Assembly: GCF_001751255.1 (NCBI RefSeq)
Contig: NZ_LJGW01000066.1
Coordinates: 34,624 to 68,566 of the forward strand
From: Streptomyces nanshensis
GTDB lineage: Bacteria > Actinomycetota > Actinomycetes > Streptomycetales > Streptomycetaceae
DNA length: 33,943 bases
Direction of reading: 5' to 3'
The stretch's first letter is position 1, and every line of letters starts with the position of its first letter. The notes below the pieces were generated by a model. That model saw nothing but the letters and a program-made list of their open reading frames with translations, was not told the origin of the DNA and did no database searches. Of the stretch, positions 2,587 through 14,815 are shown piece by piece. The position numbers and the translations under genes were made by a program.

Positions 2587-4581
2587 TCACTCTTCTTCAA
2601 CGATCTCACCGGTCGCAGTGTTCACAGCCGGCGCGGAGGACTTCGTGACAAGCGCCGCGGCGACGGCCTCCGCCGTCTTGCGGCCCACGCCCGGTACCTC
2701 GCAGATCTCCTCGACCGTCGCGGCGCGCAGCCGCTTGAGCGAGCCGAAGTGCTTCAGCAGCGCCTGCTTGCGGGACGCCCCCAGCCCCGGGACGGCGTCG
2801 AGCGGGCTGGCCTTCAGCGTCTTGGAGCGCTTGCTGCGCTGGTATCTGATCGCGAAGCGGTGCGCCTCGTCGCGTACGCGCTGGAGCAGATAGAGCCCCT
2901 CGCTCGTACGCGGCAGCACGAGGGGATCGTCCTCGCCGGGCACCCAGACCTCTTCGAGGCGCTTGGCGAGACCGCAGACGGCGACGTCGTCGACGCCGAG
3001 TTCGTCCATGGCGCTGCGGGCCGCGGCGACCTGGGGGCGGCCGCCGTCCACGACGATGAGCTGCGGAGGGTAGGCGAACTTCCTGGGGCGGCCGTCCTCG
3101 TCCCGCGACCCCGTCTCGACGGGCTCGGGACCCTCGCCCTCCGCGGGACCGTCGCCGTCGCCGCCCCACTCTCCCGTACGGCGCTTCTCCTGGAGATAGC
3201 GGCGGAAGCGGCGGCTGATGACCTCGTGCATCGAGCGGACGTCGTCCTGCCCGGCGAAGGACTTGATCTGGAAGCGGCGGTACTCGCTCTTGCGGGCGAG
3301 GCCGTCCTCGAAGACGACCATGGACGCGACCACGTCGTCGCCCTGGAAATGGGAGATGTCGAAGCACTCGATGCGCAGCGGCGCCGAGTCGAGGCCGAGG
3401 CCCTCCGCGATCTCCTCCAGCGCGCGCGAGCGCGTCGTCAGGTCGGAGGCGCGCTTGGTCTTGTGCAGGGCCAGGGCCTGCTGGGCGTTGCGCTTGACCG
3501 TCTCCATCAGGGCGCGCTTGTCGCCGCGTTGGGGCACGCGCAGGCTGACGCCGCTGCCGCGGCGCTCGGCGAGCCACTGCGCCGCGGGCTCCGGCGGCTC
3601 GGGCAGCGCCGGAACGAGGACCTCCTTGGGGACGCCCTCGCCGCGCTCCTCCCCGTAGAGCTGCTGGAGGGCGTGCTCGACGAGTTCGGGTGTGCCGATC
3701 TCCTCGACCTTGTCGGTGACCCAGCCGCGCTGGCCGCGCACCCGTCCGCCGCGTACGTGGAAGATCTGCACGGCCGCCTCCAACTCGTCCTCGGCGAGGG
3801 CGATCAGGTCGGCGTCGGTGGCGTCGGTGAGGACGACGGCGCTCTTCTCCATGGCGCGCCGCAGGGCGTCGGTGTCGTCCCGCAGCCGGGCCGCCCGCTC
3901 GTACTCCATCGCCTCGGACGCCTCGTTCATCTCGCGTTCCAGGCGGCGGAGATAGGAGTTGGTGTGCCCGGCGACGAAGTCGCAGAACTCCTCGGCGAGT
4001 TGACGGTGGTCCTCGGCGGAGATCCGGCCCACGCAGGGCGCCGAGCACTTGTCGATGTAGCCGAGGAGGCAGGGGCGGCCGATCTGGGCGGAGCGCTTGA
4101 ACACGCCCGCCGAGCACGTACGTACGGGAAACGCGCGCAGCATCAGGTCGACCGTCTCGCGGATGGCCCACGCGTGCGCGTACGGACCGAAGTAGCGCAC
4201 GCCCTTCTTCTTCGGGCCGCGCATCACCTGGACCCGCGGATACTCCTCGTTGAGGGTGACGGCGAGGGACGGATAGCTCTTGTCGTCGCGGTACTTGACG
4301 TTGAAGCGGGGCGCGAACTCCTTGATCCAGGAGTACTCGAGCTGGAGCGCCTCGACCTCCGTGGAGACGACCGTCCACTCGACCGACGCGGCCGTGGTGA
4401 CCATCGTGCGGGTGCGCACATGCAGGCCCGCGAGGTCCTGGAAGTAGTTGGCGAGCCGGTGGCGCAGGCTCTTGGCCTTCCCGACGTAGATCACCCGGCG
4501 GTGCTCGTCGCGGAACCGGTAGACCCCCGGCGAGTCGGGGATCTCACCCGGTTCGGGGCGGTAGGTGGAGGGGTCTGCCAT
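2587..4581 (-). CDS. uvrC: UvrABC excinuclease subunit C
   Basis: 664-aa UvrC, which makes both incisions around a DNA lesion after UvrB loading in nucleotide excision repair. Domains in order: GIY-YIG nuclease (GVYRFRDE at about 19-26 and IYVGKAKSL at about 31-39); a Cys-containing segment [15 protein letters not shown]; a UVR motif ([11 protein letters not shown]) that contacts UvrB; an RNase-H-like endonuclease with IECFDISH and VVDGGRPQV; and C-terminal helix-hairpin-helix repeats ([28 protein letters not shown]). A Gly/Glu-rich insert lies in the second nuclease domain, as in other Streptomyces. The start is ATG 4581 (MADPSTYRP); an upstream in-frame codon at 4611 lacks support. TAGGCT lies 7 nt before the ATG and no Shine-Dalgarno is visible, suggesting a leaderless mRNA. 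Confidence 0.97.
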
Positions 4582-4588
4582 GCCGCAC

Positions 4589-4594
4589 AGCCTA
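4589..4594 (-). promoter_or_regulatory. Putative -10 box for leaderless uvrC
   Basis: Reading the minus strand, TAGGCT is followed by exactly 7 nt and then the uvrC ATG. This is the spacing expected when transcription begins at the A of the start codon, common in Streptomyces. No convincing -35 hexamer is visible. Confidence 0.5.
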
Positions 4595-4612
4595 CGTCCG
4601 CGCGGTGACACT

Positions 4613-4640
4613 CCCCTGCCCCGTCATCACGGAGCAGGGG
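4613..4640 (-). terminator. Hairpin between the MBL-fold gene and uvrC
   Basis: CCCCTGC at 4613-4619 pairs with GCAGGGG at 4634-4640. After a single mismatch, CCGT (4621-4624) pairs with ACGG (4629-4632) around the tetraloop CATC. The helix has 11 pairs and lies 50 bp past the upstream gene's stop. It has no U-tract, as is usual for actinobacterial terminators. It also falls near the -35 region of the predicted uvrC promoter, so an operator role is possible. Confidence 0.5.
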
Positions 4641-4689
4641 CGCTCGTACGTGTCGCCCTGTACGGGCTCGTGCCGTCGCGGCGGTGGCG

Positions 4690-5346
4690 TCACCAGCCGC
4701 GTTCGCGCCACTCGGCGAGGTGGGGGCGCTCGTTGCCCAGGGTGGTGTCGCCGCCGTGGCCCGGGTAGACCCAGGTCTCGTCGGGGAGCCGCTCGAAGAG
4801 CTTGGTCTCGACGTCGTTCAGCAGGCTCGCGAACGCCTCCGGATCGTCATGGGTGTTGCCCACGCCGCCCGGGAAGAGGCAGTCCCCGGTGAAGAGATGA
4901 GGATGGCCGTGCGGGTCGTCGTAGACGAGGGCGATCGAGCCCGGGGTATGGCCCACGAGGTGACGTGCCGTCAGTTCGACGTCGCCGACGCGCACCGTGC
5001 CGCCGTCGTCCACGAGTTCGTCCGTGGCGACCGGGATGCCCTCGGCGTCGTGGCGGCCCGCGTACGTACGGGCTCCCGTCGCCTCGACGACGGGGGCGAG
5101 GGCCTGCCAGTGGTCGCCGTGCCGGTGGGTGGTGACGACGGAGGCGATGCCGTCGGAGCCGATGAGGTCGAGCAGGGTCTCGGGCTCGTTGGCCGCGTCG
5201 ATCAGAAGCTGCTCGCCGGTGCTGCGGCAGCGCAGCAGATACGCGTTGTTGTTCATGGGGCCGACCGCGACCTTCGAGATCATCAGGTCGGTCAGCTCGT
5301 GCACGTCGGCAGGTCCCCCGACCTGTACGTCTCCGGTGTAAGCCAT
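4690..5346 (-). CDS. Metallo-beta-lactamase-fold hydrolase (glyoxalase II-like)
   Basis: 218-aa cytosolic MBL-fold protein with a complete metal site: THRHGDHW (H74, H76, D78, H79), GHTPGS (H133), GDCLF (D155) and YPGHGGDT (H197). The THxHxDH motif and the PGHGxDTTLG ending resemble the glyoxalase-II/hydroxyacyl-thiol hydrolase branch. In actinomycetes this may act on mycothiol conjugates rather than glutathione ones; that substrate is inference. It lies upstream of uvrC on the same strand but is separated by a hairpin and a likely separate uvrC promoter. TAGGCT lies 7 nt before the ATG and no ribosome binding site is visible, so it is probably leaderless. Its upstream region is occupied by a MITE-like insertion. 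Confidence 0.88.
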   Translation of the reverse strand: MAYTGDVQVGGPADVHELTDLMISKVAVGPMNNNAYLLRCRSTGEQLLIDAANEPETLLDLIGSDGIASVVTTHRHGDHWQALAPVVEATGARTYAGRHDAEGIPVATDELVDDGGTVRVGDVELTARHLVGHTPGSIALVYDDPHGHPHLFTGDCLFPGGVGNTHDDPEAFASLLNDVETKLFERLPDETWVYPGHGGDTTLGNERPHLAEWRERGW

Positions 5347-9762: not shown

Positions 9763-9954
9763 TCGTCTGTGCGGACGTACGGGCGTACGGGCGTGCGTGA
9801 GGCGTCCGTCCCGCGCTCCGTACGCCACTGAGCCGCAGGACATTGTTCGCGCCGAATTTCTACCGGACATCTGGTGCGGTCCGGTCACCGCTGAGACCCT
9901 TTTCGGCGCTGTGCGTAGAAAGCGCACGCAACAACCGTGTTTACAGGGGATGTT

Positions 9955-12900
9955 GTGGTACGAGTAAACGTGCGCAGAAGAGTCCTCATCCGGTCACTGA
10001 TTCCCGCAGTGACCGCTTTTTCGTTTCTGACGGCCACTCAGCCGCCGTCGGCGAACGCGGCGCCCGCCGCCGCATCTGCCCCGGCCGCCGTCTCTGCTCA
10101 GAGCGGCGCGTCCCACTCCACGGTCCGTCCCACGACGGCCCCCGACGGCGACGGCATGGAACTGTCGCGCACCACCCGGCCCGTGGCGCCGGGCGCCCGG
10201 CTCACCTCGTTCCAGCGGCTGGAGCCGGACAAGTGGCTTCGGGCGGACGCCCTCAGCGTCGAACTCGGCGACGGCGGGACGGGATCGGGTTCCGGCGCCG
10301 TCGCCGGACAGGGCACCGGCGGCACAGGCAGCGGTGGCGGCGGAGGCAGCGGGGGCACTCGCGCCGAGTACCTCTCCTCCGGCGAGGTCTCCACCCGTAA
10401 GCCGCTCAGCGAGCAGGCCGCCGCCTACGACCCGGGCAAGGGCCGCCGTACGGTCGCGGCCTTCAACGCCGACTTCTTCGACATCGACGAGACCGGCGCC
10501 CCGCTCGGGCCGGGCGTACGCCACGGCCGCGCCACGCACTCCCCCGAGGCGGGCAACAGCTCGTCGGTCGCCTTCGGTCCGGACGCGGCGGGCCGCATCC
10601 TCGACCTCTACTTCGAGGGCACCCTCACCCTCCCCGACGGCAAGCAGCCGCTGACCGCGTACAACGCGGCCAACGTCCCCGAGAACGGCATCGGCGCCTA
10701 CAACTCCCGCTGGGGCAGCGCCGATCGGGCTCTCGCCACCGACGGCGACCCCGAGTCGTCCGAGGTGCGGCTGCGGCACGGCCGCGTGGCCGAGGTCGTG
10801 GACGAGCCCGGCGACGGCCCGATTCCGAAGGGCACGACCGTCCTGGTCGGCCGGGACGCCGCGGCGGGCGCCCTGGACGGTCTGGACGTGGGCGACCGTG
10901 TCTCGCTGGAGTACCACGTCCGTACGAACGGGGGCGGCCCGGCGCCGCGTACGGCGGTCGGCGGCCGGGGCCTGCTGGTCGTCGACGGCGAGCCGCAGGA
11001 CTGGGAGGGCAAGCCGAACAACGAGGCGGCGCCCCGTACCGCCGTCGGCTTCTCCCAGGACGGCTCCACGATGCACGTCCTGTCCGTGGACGGACGCCAG
11101 GCCGCCTCCGGCGGTGTCACGCTCACCGAACTGGCCCGGATGATGCGGCAGTTGGGCGCCTACAACGCGCTCAATCTGGACGGCGGCGGCTCGTCCACCC
11201 TGCTCGCTCGCGAACCGGGCGCCCAGAAGCCCCAGTTGGAGAACGAGCCGTCCGACGGCGAGGAGCGCGAGGTGCCCAACGGCCTCGCCCTGACCGCTCC
11301 CGAGGGCAGCGGCAGGCTCAAGGACTTCTGGGTGGAGACGGCCGCGGACCCGGCCTCCGCACCGACCGCCGACAACATGCCCGTCGGCCACCCGGACCGT
11401 GTCTTCCCGGGCCTGACACGGAAGTTGACGGCCGCCGGGTACGACGAGTCCTACGGTCCGGCCGAGGGCAGCCCGCGCTGGTTGGCGGCCCGTTCCGGCG
11501 TCGGCCGGGTCGACGGCAAGGGCGTCTTCCACGCCCGTCGTGCCGGCTCCACGCGGGTCACCGCGCACCAGGGTGCCGCACAGGGCTCGACACGGCTGTC
11601 GGTCGTCGGCGATCTGGCACGCGTACAGCCCACCCGGGAACGCGTCGGGCTGGCGGACGGCGACGCCGAGGGCTCCTTCGGCATCGTCGGGTTCGACGCG
11701 GGCGGCACCAGCGCTCCCGTCGATCCCGCCGACGCTCAACTGACGTACGACCGTTCGCTGTTCTCCATCACGCCCGACAGCGAGAGCGGCGGCTTCACCG
11801 TACGGGCCCGGCCCGGACAGGAGTCGGCGTCCGGCATCGTGACGGTCGCGGTACGGGGGCACACCGCCAAGGTCGCCGTCACGGTCGGACTGCGCGAGGT
11901 GAGGACCGCGGACTTCGAAGACGCCGCGGACTGGAAGTTCAGCGCCGCACGGGCCGAGGGCTCGCTCGCCGCCGACCCCGGCGGCAAGGAGGGCACGGGG
12001 CTGAAGATGACGTACGACTTCGGCCGCTCGACCGCGACCCGCGCCGCGTACGCGACCCCGCCCGCGGAGGTTCCCGTACCGGGGCAGCCGCAGAGCTTCA
12101 GCCTGTGGATCAAGAGCGACGGCAAGGGCGCCTGGCCCTCGCTCCACCTCAAGGACGCGAGCGGGACCGACCAGGTGCTGCGCGGCGAGCACCTCACCGA
12201 GGAGGGCTGGCAGCAGGTCGTCTTCGAGGTGCCGGAGACCGTCAACTACCCGCTGCGGCTGAACCGTTTCTACCTCGCGGAGACCAGACCGGCGGAGCAG
12301 TACACGGGCGAGGTCGTGCTCGACGAGCTGACGGCGCACGTGCCGCCGGACGTGGAGCTGCCAGAGGCCGCCCGTCCGCACGATCCGCTGATCTCGACGG
12401 CGGCCGACGTCGCGGGACGCGACTGGCGGTACGCGGTGATCTCCGACGCGCAGTTCGTGGCCCGCGACCCGGACAGCGCCGTCGTACGGCAGGCACGCCG
12501 GACACTGCGCGAGATCCGCGCCGCACGGCCCGACTTCGTCATCGTCGACGGCGACCTCGTGGACGAGGGCTCGAAGGAGGATCTGGCCTTCGCACACCGG
12601 GTGTTGGAGGAGGAGTTGGGCGATGCCGTCGACTGGTACTACGTGCCGGGCAACCACGAGGTGATGGGCGGCAGCATCGCGGACTTCACCGCCGAATTCG
12701 GCCCGGCGCAGCGGACGTTCGACCACAAGGGCACGAGGTTCATCACGCTCGACACCTCGTCCCTGACCGTACGGGGCGGCGGGTACGGCCAACTCCAGGA
12801 GCTGCGGCGGCAGTTGAACGAGGCTGCCGGCGACCCGTCGGTCTCCTCGGTGACCCTCGTCCAGCATGTGCCGCCGCGCGACCCGACCGGACAGCAGGCG

Positions 12901-13515
12901 AGCCAGCTCACCGACCGGATGGAGGCGGATCTGCTGGAGGACTGGCTAGGCGACTTCCGCGCGCGAACAGGCAAGGGCGCGGCCTTCATCGGGGGGCACG
13001 CGGGCGCGTTCGACGCCTCACGGGTGCGCGGTGTGCCGTATCTGGTCAACGGCAACTCCGGTAAGGCACCGGCCACTCCGGCGGACCACGGCGGGTTCAC
13101 CGGCTGGTCGCTGGTCGGCGTCGACGCACACACGCACGGGAACCGGAACGGGAACGGAAACGGCCGGGACTGGACGGCCGTGCAGACAAGGGCACATGTC
13201 GACGGACTGGCGATGGACGCTCCGGAGAAGCTGCGCGTGGGGGCGTCGACGCATGCGACGGCGGCCGTCACCCAGGGCGAGGGTGCGTCGGCGCGGAAGG
13301 TGCCCGTGACGTGGCCGGTCTCCGCGGACTGGTCCGGCTCCGGGAACCTCTGTGTGCGGGGCGGCCGGAGCGCCGCGGACGACACGAGGGTGCGCTGCGC
13401 GGCCTCGTACGACCCACGGGACGGCACCCTCACCGCGTACCGGCCGGGCACCGTGCGCCTGGCGGTGGAGGTGTCCGGGGAGCGGACGGAGAGGCAGGTG
13501 ACGATCACCCGCTGA
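9955..13515 (+). CDS. Secreted phosphodiester glycosidase-metallophosphoesterase fusion
   Basis: 1186-aa exported protein. A basic N terminus plus hydrophobic core (RRRVLIRSLIPAVTAFSFL) ending in SANA is a signal peptide. A phosphodiester-glycosidase (NAGPA/DUF2233) domain follows, with AAFNADFFDI near 169 and NLDGGGSSTLL near 405, interrupted by a Gly/Ser-rich loop. Next come Ig-like (Big2-type) segments and a carbohydrate-binding-like beta domain (FEDAADWKFS...). A calcineurin-like phosphoesterase follows: SDAQF (about 830), GDLVDEG, GNHEV (about 900), VQHVPP and GGHAG (about 1012). The first metal motif is D-x-Q rather than D-x-H, and the last is GHxG rather than GHxH. A final Ig-like tail closes the protein. 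Start GTG 9955 has AGGGGA 4 nt upstream; GTG 9937 and 9970 are alternatives. The likely role is cleavage of sugar-phosphodiesters outside the cell, but the substrate is unknown. Confidence 0.85.
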   Translation: MVRVNVRRRVLIRSLIPAVTAFSFLTATQPPSANAAPAAASAPAAVSAQSGASHSTVRPTTAPDGDGMELSRTTRPVAPGARLTSFQRLEPDKWLRADALSVELGDGGTGSGSGAVAGQGTGGTGSGGGGGSGGTRAEYLSSGEVSTRKPLSEQAAAYDPGKGRRTVAAFNADFFDIDETGAPLGPGVRHGRATHSPEAGNSSSVAFGPDAAGRILDLYFEGTLTLPDGKQPLTAYNAANVPENGIGAYNSRWGSADRALATDGDPESSEVRLRHGRVAEVVDEPGDGPIPKGTTVLVGRDAAAGALDGLDVGDRVSLEYHVRTNGGGPAPRTAVGGRGLLVVDGEPQDWEGKPNNEAAPRTAVGFSQDGSTMHVLSVDGRQAASGGVTLTELARMMRQLGAYNALNLDGGGSSTLLAREPGAQKPQLENEPSDGEEREVPNGLALTAPEGSGRLKDFWVETAADPASAPTADNMPVGHPDRVFPGLTRKLTAAGYDESYGPAEGSPRWLAARSGVGRVDGKGVFHARRAGSTRVTAHQGAAQGSTRLSVVGDLARVQPTRERVGLADGDAEGSFGIVGFDAGGTSAPVDPADAQLTYDRSLFSITPDSESGGFTVRARPGQESASGIVTVAVRGHTAKVAVTVGLREVRTADFEDAADWKFSAARAEGSLAADPGGKEGTGLKMTYDFGRSTATRAAYATPPAEVPVPGQPQSFSLWIKSDGKGAWPSLHLKDASGTDQVLRGEHLTEEGWQQVVFEVPETVNYPLRLNRFYLAETRPAEQYTGEVVLDELTAHVPPDVELPEAARPHDPLISTAADVAGRDWRYAVISDAQFVARDPDSAVVRQARRTLREIRAARPDFVIVDGDLVDEGSKEDLAFAHRVLEEELGDAVDWYYVPGNHEVMGGSIADFTAEFGPAQRTFDHKGTRFITLDTSSLTVRGGGYGQLQELRRQLNEAAGDPSVSSVTLVQHVPPRDPTGQQASQLTDRMEADLLEDWLGDFRARTGKGAAFIGGHAGAFDASRVRGVPYLVNGNSGKAPATPADHGGFTGWSLVGVDAHTHGNRNGNGNGRDWTAVQTRAHVDGLAMDAPEKLRVGASTHATAAVTQGEGASARKVPVTWPVSADWSGSGNLCVRGGRSAADDTRVRCAASYDPRDGTLTAYRPGTVRLAVEVSGERTERQVTITR

Positions 13516-13620: not shown

Positions 13621-14583
13621 TCAGACCGAGGCGTCGTCCTTGATACGGCGCGTGGCCAGCAGACTGGTAATGGTCGTGACGACGAGGACGGCACCGATCA
13701 CGCCCAGCGACACGGCGATGCCGATCTCCGGTACATGCACGCCTGATTCGTGCAGCGCATGCAGCACGAGCTTGACGCCGATGAAGCCGAGGATCACCGA
13801 CAGCCCGTACGACAGGTGCACCAGCTTCTCCAGCAGCCCGCCGATGAGGAAGTAGAGCTGCCGCAGACCCATCAGCGCGAAGGCGTTGGCGGTGAAGACG
13901 ATGTACGGGTCCTGCGTGAGGCCGAAGATCGCCGGGATGGAGTCCAGCGCGAAGAGGACGTCCGTCGAGCCGATGGCCAGCATCACGATCAGCATGGGCG
14001 TCATCAGCCGCTTGCCGTTCTCGACGACGAACAGCTTCGTGCCGTGGTAGCGGTCGGTGGAGGGGAAGCGCCGCTCGACCATCTTCAGGAAGCGGTTCTC
14101 CTCGTACGTCTCCTCTCCGTGGTCCTCGCGGGCCTCCTTGATCAGCTTCCAGGCCGTCCAGATCAGGAAGGCGCCGAAGATGAAGAAGATCCAGGAGAAC
14201 GCCGAGATCATCGCCGCTCCCGCCGCGATGAACAGGGCCCGCAGCACCAGCGCGATGAGGACGCCGACCATCAGCACACGCTGCTGATACGCCGCCGGCA
14301 CCGCGAACTTCGCCATGATCAGCACGAAGACGAAGAGGTTGTCGACGCTGAGCGATTTCTCGGTGAGGAAGCCCGCGAAGAACTCACCCGACGCCTTGCT
14401 CGTACCGAACAGATGGAGCCCCAGCCCGAAGAGCCCGGCCAGGACGATCCAGACGGTCGTCCACGCCCCGGCCTCCTTGAGGGAGACCTCGTGCGGTTTG
14501 CGGCCGCCGATGAAGAAGTCGGCGGCGATGAGGACGCACAGACCGACGATCGTCAGAACCCAGACATCCAGGGAGATTTCCAT
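13621..14583 (-). CDS. TerC family integral membrane protein (probable Mn2+/metal exporter)
   Basis: 320-aa polytopic membrane protein of the TerC/Alx/YkoY family with about nine hydrophobic segments, starting MEISLDVWVLTIVGLCVL. Conserved acidic residues lie in membrane motifs EKSLSVDNLFVFVLI and GSTDVLFALDSIPA, characteristic of the family and proposed to bind metal. Bacillus and E. coli homologues are linked to Mn2+ export and to metal loading of secreted enzymes. A cytoplasmic loop EDHGEETYEENRFLKMVERRF lies mid-protein. GGAGG is 8 nt before the ATG. The leader carries a yybP-ykoY-type riboswitch able to hide that site, strongly supporting manganese control. Downstream it converges on the secreted metallophosphoesterase gene. 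The name TerC reflects tellurite-resistance history, not proven function here. Confidence 0.93.
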   Translation of the reverse strand: MEISLDVWVLTIVGLCVLIAADFFIGGRKPHEVSLKEAGAWTTVWIVLAGLFGLGLHLFGTSKASGEFFAGFLTEKSLSVDNLFVFVLIMAKFAVPAAYQQRVLMVGVLIALVLRALFIAAGAAMISAFSWIFFIFGAFLIWTAWKLIKEAREDHGEETYEENRFLKMVERRFPSTDRYHGTKLFVVENGKRLMTPMLIVMLAIGSTDVLFALDSIPAIFGLTQDPYIVFTANAFALMGLRQLYFLIGGLLEKLVHLSYGLSVILGFIGVKLVLHALHESGVHVPEIGIAVSLGVIGAVLVVTTITSLLATRRIKDDASV

Positions 14584-14591
14584 GTGCTCAT

Positions 14592-14736
14592 CCTCCGGCT
14601 AGCGTGCGCGCATCCGCCGGAGGTCTCCTCCACCTGGCGAGCACTGTCGTGCCTCCAGGCCGGCGCCCCGGGACCGGTCACATCCGGTCCGTATTGACGG
14701 GCACACCGCCGGGTGTCGGGAGTACTCCCCTCCGCA
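14592..14736 (-). promoter_or_regulatory. yybP-ykoY (Mn2+) riboswitch controlling terC translation
   Basis: Read on the minus strand, the leader contains the class hallmarks. GGGGAGTA lies at 14730-14723, closing off a P1 5' strand CGGAGG (14734-14729). CGTCAATAC lies at 14699-14691, the second conserved metal-site loop. GAGACCTCCGGC lies at 14627-14616 and contains the P1 3' strand. The same 3' strand CCTCCGGC (14623-14616) is a perfect 8-bp complement of GCCGGAGG (14599-14592), which includes the terC Shine-Dalgarno, with a 16-nt loop between. This predicts that Mn2+-stabilised P1 frees the ribosome binding site, while unliganded RNA sequesters it (translational ON switch). The class is well known upstream of TerC-family genes; the switching model here is inferred from base pairing. 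Confidence 0.85.
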
Positions 14737-14815
14737 CAAAGGAGAGTAAAGCAACACCAAGGAAAGGTAAAGAGCCGCTGGTCAGGCTGCCTTGGGAACG
14801 GTACGTCGATGCTGT

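Follow-up and report, generated by a model that had tools for sequence, protein, structure and literature searches.

Manganese-responsive riboswitches of the yybP-ykoY class, and terC genes that carry such a leader, are already known. The Escherichia coli alx leader has been reported to respond to Mn2+ (PMC9603457), and in Vibrio parahaemolyticus terC has a yybP-ykoY leader and is induced by manganese (PMC13274385). In the class, an adenosine contacts Mn2+ through its N7 (A41 in Lactococcus lactis, whose L3 loop reads UCAAUUC, and A48 in Xanthomonas oryzae; PMC6754395), and Mn2+ stabilises P1.1 in L. lactis (PMC11087558). TerC proteins have been reported to metalate exoenzymes (PMC10550928). 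Among actinobacteria, the leader of Corynebacterium glutamicum cg2157 (terC) was observed by RNA-seq and listed at 49.13 bits under an older Rfam model of RF00080 (PMC3890552 Table 2), yybP-ykoY leaders are also named in Corynebacterium elsewhere (PMC4046766), and Corynebacterium and Streptomyces transcriptomes are jointly credited with revealing yybP-ykoY riboswitches (PMC8164766). We found no description of a Mn2+ riboswitch of Streptomyces terC in the open literature searched, a search that did not extend to the Streptomyces transcriptome source behind PMC8164766.

Here we analyse the terC leader in a 33,943-nt stretch of Streptomyces nanshensis DNA (contig NZ_LJGW01000066.1, positions 34,624 to 68,566), hereafter the window. 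We consider it very probable that this leader is an alx-type yybP-ykoY Mn2+ riboswitch, predicted to act as a translational ON switch by strand exchange.

Results

Read directly on the minus strand of the window, the conserved blocks precede the terC start codon (ATG, 14583-14581). Downstream from 14734 they follow in the order CGGAGG, GGGGAGTA, CCCGTCAATACGG, GAGACCTCCGGC, GCCGGAGG and ATG, and the positions that the initial annotation had given for the blocks, P1 and the anti-Shine-Dalgarno strand were right to the base. The features of the leader and its gene, all on the minus strand, are as follows.

14743-14771, minus: predicted promoter, with -35 TTTACC at 14771-14766, a 17-nt spacer and -10 TACTCT at 14748-14743
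14729-14734, minus: P1 5' strand CGGAGG, pairing with 14623-14618; invariant in Streptomyces, covarying outside it
14730-14723, minus: GGGGAGTA, the L1 5' strand GGAGTA plus the two G before it
14723-14728, minus: L1 5' strand GGAGTA, invariant in the 24 first-batch leaders and the same in E. coli alx
14719-14722, minus: P1.2 5' strand CTCC, pairing with GGAG 14631-14628; the three inner pairs covary
14703-14708, minus: P3.1 outer 5' strand CGGTGT, pairing with GCGCCG 14666-14661; covariation
14698-14701, minus: P3.1 inner 5' strand CCCG, pairing with CGGG 14670-14667
14699-14691, minus: CGTCAATAC, letters read directly, covering L3
14691-14697, minus: L3 UCAAUAC; UCANYAC in the 53 aptamer-bearing leaders, UCAUUAC in E. 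coli alx
14671-14690, minus: P3.2 hairpin, GGACCGG 14690-14684 with CCGGTCC 14677-14671; covariation
14632-14660, minus: P4 hairpin, GCCTGG 14660-14655 with CCAGGT 14637-14632; C-G to U-A changes
14624-14627, minus: L1 3' strand GAGA, invariant in the 24 first-batch leaders; GAGA-CC as in alx
14627-14622, minus: GAGACC, letters read directly
14616-14623, minus: switch strand CCTCCGGC; CCTCCG is the P1 3' strand and the whole strand is the anti-Shine-Dalgarno
14592-14599, minus: Shine-Dalgarno segment GCCGGAGG, 8 nt before ATG, containing a copy of the P1 5' strand CGGAGG
13621-14583, minus: terC, 320 aa, TerC/Alx family membrane protein (PF03741, TIGR03718)

The two helices proposed at the outset are both present: a 6-bp P1 formed by CGGAGG (14734-14729) with CCTCCG (14623-14618), and a perfect 8-bp helix formed by CCTCCGGC (14623-14616) with the Shine-Dalgarno GCCGGAGG (14599-14592). 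Because CCTCCG is common to both, they are mutually exclusive. Elsewhere in the fold, the outermost P1.2 pair is non-standard in 13 of 17 Streptomyces alignment rows, and P4 differs in length between species.

The downstream open reading frame encodes TerC (PF03741, E=8.9e-53) and scores 382.7 bits (E=1.3e-114) against NCBIfam TIGR03718, 'R_switched_Alx', well over the cut-off of 246.4; a TerC/Alx-family gene under the leader is a feature of the alx-type branch. It belongs to a minus-strand row of genes at 19884-13621 (uvrB, TerD, TerD-like and terC), and a large NAGPA-metallophosphoesterase reading frame on the plus strand (9937-13515) converges on it. A TA(G/C)NNT hexamer begins 13-15 nt upstream of P1 in 50 of 53 Streptomyces leaders, with TTTAC 17-18 nt farther upstream, again in 50 of 53; in the window, the predicted -10 ends 8 nt ahead of P1. 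A general sigma-70 scan found no promoter at 14743-14771. Since only about 8 nt separate this promoter-like pair from P1 in these 50 leaders, the terC messenger probably begins with the aptamer, which would place the transcription start next to P1.

The leader carries the hallmarks of the class. An L1 internal loop, GGGGAGUA / GAGA-CC, tops P1 in the window and in 53 of 61 Streptomyces leaders; the P1, P3 and P4 helices covary and meet at a junction; and a 7-nt L3 with an invariant adenosine lies above P3.1 in a register that agrees with alx, L. lactis and X. oryzae. Although the letters of CGTCAATAC resemble the RF00080 consensus CGUCAACAUAC, the folded register differs from that consensus and sets the 7-nt L3 UCAAUAC (14697-14691) on top of a CCCG/CGGG helix. 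Aligning the block to the consensus by letters was dropped, the folded register fitting alx and L. lactis better. In the 53 Streptomyces aptamers, found with a regular expression that itself required UCANYAC, L3 reads UCAAUAC (30), UCAGUAC (18), UCAUCAC (3) or UCACCAC (2), and no aptamer with another L3 loop turned up in the 8 remaining Streptomyces primary terC leaders. The leader thus has the conserved alx-type core, with loops GGGGAGUA/GAGA and UCANYAC and helices P1, P1.2, P3.1, P3.2 and P4. By analogy with the loops of those two species, A14695 is the predicted Mn2+-contacting adenosine, the counterpart of A41 in L. lactis and A48 in X. oryzae, and Mn2+ binding by the core is likely.

The public family model does not recognise this leader. 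The initial annotation had predicted an Infernal match to the Rfam yybP-ykoY model and had taken the lack of one as refutation; taken literally, that is the outcome, as RF00080 gave no match in the window at the gathering cut-off of 45 bits, nor at E<=10 in 381 nt around the leader. The S. nanshensis genome gave no match either, and neither did 14 further aptamer-bearing Streptomyces loci, drawn from 23, when searched at E<=10. Across 61 Streptomyces genomes, searched with stricter filters, RF00080 produced 29 matches with E up to 10; they were spread over 24 genomes and in no case lay at a terC leader. Moreover, 0 of 18 alx-type loci of other genera reached the gathering threshold, the only one applied there. 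The same model also misses the E. coli alx leader (L031, 2376-2499; Rfam 15, E<=10, 351 nt) and scores the E. coli mntP leader at 41.6 bits. For these reasons the miss is weak evidence against the class, and a match to Rfam is a poor test of it; we ceased to treat the miss as a refutation once alx was found to be missed as well.

We built a covariance model, R1, from 17 of the first 24 Streptomyces terC aptamers, with the structure read from folds and alx left out. The underlying alignment (A3) and R1 exclude L008 and L006 (near-identical to L005), as well as L016, L019, L020, L022 and L023, which have a long P4. In a search of 91.6 kb, R1 picks out the E. coli alx leader with 29.5 bits (E=3.3e-4), and the best non-aptamer match there reaches 16.7 bits (E=0.29); that one model finds both the Streptomyces leaders and alx is a further feature of the alx-type branch. 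R1 gave no match to the E. coli mntP leader; it is therefore a model of the alx-type branch, whose link to the mntP type is indirect. That link is provided by a second Streptomyces element, which R1 matches at ten loci (L032-L041) with 44.5-49.9 bits (E 6e-9 to 1.1e-7) and RF00080 scores at 24.3-30.5 bits, below its cut-off, and which thereby connects the two models.

This second, more RF00080-like candidate Mn riboswitch occurs in 11 of the 61 Streptomyces genomes, with E<=5.5e-4 and scores short of the cut-off. The single locus examined, L033, has it on the minus strand at 1631-1534, ahead of a gene for a GDT1-family divalent cation/proton antiporter.

The alx-type aptamer is widespread. A regular expression places it at the primary terC copy in 53 of 61 Streptomyces genomes, and R1 confirms it at 29 of 31 second-batch primary copies. 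In whole-genome searches, run with stricter filters that may lose weak matches, R1 gave exactly one match in the S. nanshensis genome (E<=0.01), matched 184 of 197 genomes and 6 of 6 genera across the order (E<=0.01), and matched 62 of 118 genomes and 36 of 72 genera across the class (E<=0.001), 8 of the 62 being Streptomyces. RF00080 has matches, none over cut-off, in 4 of 118 genomes of the class, the two genome sets being the same as far as listed.

A pattern search yielded 120 aptamers, and their downstream genes were identified by tblastn; calling the longest reading frame was abandoned because GC-rich DNA yields false ones. TerC or Alx lies within 2.6 kb downstream of 84 of the 120 (E<1e-3; six weak), and GDT1 follows 3. 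The remaining 33 loci had no TerC, Alx or GDT1 match, eight of them with at most 423 nt of DNA downstream. A Pfam scan of eight reading frames identified six as TerC, including those of L052, L072 and L121, three of the five unseen by tblastn. TerC also follows 21 of 22 aptamers found with R1.

Two loci have unusual arrangements. In Thermus tenuipuniceus (L075), an alx-type pattern match on the plus strand (4407-4498) lies 23 nt before a reading frame (4522-5229) for a putative neutral zinc metallopeptidase family protein (PF04298), an unusual partner. In Nonomuraea sp. (L077), two alx-type aptamers lie on opposite strands (minus 1858-1762 and plus 1946-2045), 87 nt apart; terC is behind the minus-strand copy, and tblastn found no TerC, Alx or GDT1 in the 1.6 kb past the plus-strand copy.

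Covariation supports the structure. P1 is CGGAGG/CCTCCG in all 53 aptamer-bearing Streptomyces leaders; since it is invariant there, the evidence for P1 covariation comes from other genera, and covariation within Streptomyces concerns P3.1, P3.2 and P4. From the pattern set we kept 65 of 120 loci, leaving out Streptomyces, non-TerC loci and six without a start codon. R1 matched 62 of these 65, L077 twice, and the resulting 63 matches cover 28 pairs with 95.1% of cells paired. These 62 loci come from a pattern search in which L1, GTCANYAC and GAGACC are held fixed; they show 404 double-change cells, where shuffled controls show 125 and slid controls no more than 49. The 22 non-Streptomyces loci found with R1, the best-scoring ones fetched from the class search, show 89, compared with 26 shuffled and at most 15 slid; because both alignments were fitted to the model, they are tilted in its favour. 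Leaving aside the fixed GG/CC, P1 pairs number 200 in the 65 non-Streptomyces loci, compared with a shuffled mean of 130 and a maximum of 149 in 5,000 shuffles. P1, P1.2, P3.1, P3.2 and P4 therefore covary across actinobacteria.

The alternative helix is equally well kept. An anti-Shine-Dalgarno helix of 7-10 Watson-Crick pairs is present in all 53 aptamer-bearing Streptomyces leaders (7 bp in 3, 8 bp in 20, 9 bp in 6 and 10 bp in 24), so that both alternative helices persist in homologous leaders, as the initial annotation had expected, and in other genera the replacements are coupled. For the latter, the complement of the P1 3' pentamer was sought in the 24 nt before the start codon. Six of the 84 TerC loci were skipped for want of a start codon, leaving 78 that include 13 Streptomyces; the 33 loci with no TerC, Alx or GDT1 match and the 3 GDT1 loci were left out. 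The complement is present in 48 of the 78 (shuffled mean 24.5, maximum 36 of 20,000), in 36 of the 65 non-Streptomyces leaders (mean 15.6, maximum 26 of 20,000) and, with the CCTCC group also removed, in 15 of 41 (mean 4.1, maximum 12), in permutation tests that ignore phylogeny among related species.

The groups are uneven. CCTCC is accompanied by GGAGG in 21 of 24 leaders (GGAGG in 13 of 41 other non-Streptomyces leaders), CCTCG by CGAGG in 7 of 13 (0 of 52 others), CCTTC by GAAGG in 4 of 9 (3 of 56), CCTTG by CAAGG in 1 of 8 (0 of 57), CCTCA by TGAGG in 3 of 3 (4 of 62) and CCTCT by AGAGG in 0 of 2 (0 of 63). The exact pentamer is absent in 29 of the 65; some of these misses tolerate G-U pairs, as with CCTTCGG opposite CCGGAGG in L069, L083 and L117. 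In the set found with R1, the complement is present in 11 of 20 leaders (mean 6.4; 4 of 20,000 shuffles as high), and of the 9 leaders without it, 7 have CCGGAG and so miss it by one base; 20 of 22 loci entered this test, L238 having no TerC and L244 no start. The P1 5' strand, the P1 3' strand and the Shine-Dalgarno thus tend to change together outside the genus, as an exclusive two-state model requires.

Folding energies, which as predicted ignore metal and loop docking, were compared in 23 leaders (L006 out). With the anti-Shine-Dalgarno helix forced, the energy equals the minimum free energy (MFE) in 21 Streptomyces leaders, and in the other two the MFE is 0.3-0.4 kcal/mol lower; folds with P1 forced lie 6.4-18.4 kcal/mol above the MFE. 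The MFE of the window leader is a third fold, 0.4 kcal/mol below the anti-Shine-Dalgarno fold, in which all 8 Shine-Dalgarno bases are paired, with other partners. From these energies, OFF is the predicted default fold without ligand. A search of the leader for an intrinsic-terminator-like site found none, and an anti-Shine-Dalgarno exclusive with the ligand-stabilised helix in a leader with no terminator is the architecture of a translational ON switch. We infer the ON direction because the default fold is OFF, no terminator-like site is present and Mn2+ stabilises P1.1 in L. lactis (PMC11087558).

In 8 of 61 Streptomyces genomes the terC aptamer has been lost or has decayed naturally, and no intact copy is present (L003, L004, L007, L010, L011, L012, L185 and L197). 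L003, L004 and L007 keep the promoter-like pair and the Shine-Dalgarno and have no anti-Shine-Dalgarno adjoining it. L010 keeps P1 and a 9-nt anti-Shine-Dalgarno and not the L1 and L3 sequences, and L197 keeps an 8-nt anti-Shine-Dalgarno without an aptamer. Six of the eight leaders have no anti-Shine-Dalgarno near the Shine-Dalgarno: five have a complement of 2-4 nt, and L004 has one of 6 nt that lies 96 nt upstream. Additionally, an intact aptamer is absent from six second terC copies; L175 gives a weak 17.7-bit R1 match, and the second copies in L170, L175 and L198 show apparent remnants of the aptamer 3' half.

Discussion

The class, the gene and the two-state translational architecture first proposed for this leader hold up. 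The Shine-Dalgarno segment repeats the sequence of the P1 5' strand, so these two strands compete for the same partner. We infer Mn2+ as the ligand, and the switch may work as follows. In the ligand-free RNA, CCUCCGGC (14623-14616) would be paired to the Shine-Dalgarno GCCGGAGG (14599-14592), keeping ribosomes from entering. Binding of Mn2+ between L1 and L3 would make P1 more stable; P1 would then capture CCUCCG, free the Shine-Dalgarno and allow terC translation. TerC may then handle excess manganese, by efflux or by metalation of exported enzymes; this would be its physiological role.

The same RNA fold could serve another main signal in Streptomyces, such as alkaline pH, Ca2+ or another divalent ion, instead of Mn2+. 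Alkaline pH acts together with Mn2+ on reporters of E. coli alx and mntP (PMC9603457), a Streptococcus pneumoniae aptamer also binds Ca2+ (PMC9495176), and terC here adjoins TerD-domain genes. We nevertheless regard this as improbable, because L1 and L3 are those of the Mn2+-responsive alx, the gene family is the riboswitch-controlled Alx family, and the sister element in L033 precedes a GDT1-family divalent cation/proton antiporter.

A leader hairpin that hides the Shine-Dalgarno with no riboswitch at all, as an RNA thermometer or a protein-binding leader, is very unlikely. The anti-Shine-Dalgarno pairing alone would suit a thermosensor, and folding gives a strong OFF state; yet a thermosensor needs no conserved L1/L3, P3 or P4, and these are conserved and covary across actinobacteria. 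Moreover, the six of eight aptamer-less leaders that lost the anti-Shine-Dalgarno are mostly what is expected if this strand needs the aptamer. Least credible is that the exclusive pairing is a by-product of the P1 3' strand CCTCCG complementing any GGAGG Shine-Dalgarno by chance: GGAGG is a common Shine-Dalgarno, found before the start in 14 of 42 leaders with a non-CCTCC P1 3' strand, but the helices span 7-10 bp, beyond five Shine-Dalgarno bases, in 53 of 53 Streptomyces leaders, and leaders with P1 CCTCG have CGAGG before the start in 7 of 13 cases, against 0 of 52 among other non-Streptomyces leaders.

Taking the alx-type Mn2+ riboswitch as the preferred reading, we lean, by a modest degree, toward a broader picture. 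Actinobacteria may harbor a large, overlooked alx-type Mn2+ branch before terC that is invisible to the public model and works as a pure translational switch, with the Shine-Dalgarno as a copy of a P1 strand. In most Streptomyces it may be the chief means by which manganese controls TerC, and some lineages may have lost it, mostly together with the anti-Shine-Dalgarno. What appears to be new is this alx-type actinobacterial branch, in which the anti-Shine-Dalgarno covaries, and how much the public model leaves undetected: RF00080, an RNA family model in wide use, misses the branch, with matches in 4 of 118 class genomes where R1 has them in 62. Although TerC still bears a name taken from tellurite, the proposed switch would place it under manganese control in the main genus of antibiotic producers. 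Furthermore, natural pairs of presence and absence, and a simple strand-exchange design, make it directly testable by reporter assay.

Among the closest described systems is the E. coli alx leader, which shares L1 GGGGAGUA/GAGACC, an adjoining P1.2, the P3.1/P3.2/P4 layout and a 7-nt L3, UCAUUAC in alx, that fits UCANYAC. The two differ in G+C content over the match (0.47 in alx, 0.72 here), and alx has a larger P4 and a longer downstream region. Unlike alx, the terC leader uses the P1 3' strand itself as the anti-Shine-Dalgarno, and its aptamer starts 8 nt after the predicted -10.

With the RF00080 type, represented by mntP, L. lactis and X. oryzae, the leader shares the GGGGAGUA block, P3, a 7-nt L3 with the conserved adenosine, and P1 as the switch helix (PMC6754395, PMC11087558). 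At L3 the RF00080 consensus reads CGUCA-ACAUACU, and it includes a hairpin separating L1 from P3, whereas the terC leader has CCCG-UCANYAC, no L1-P3 hairpin is modelled, and RF00080 does not score it. The C. glutamicum cg2157 leader is likewise an actinobacterial terC leader; it is listed under RF00080, and the likeness is drawn from that listing. Finally, the GDT1-linked Streptomyces element (L032-L041) shares the R1 match, with P1 CGAAGG/CCUUCG in L032, and differs in being closer to RF00080 and in preceding a different gene, identified in L033 only.
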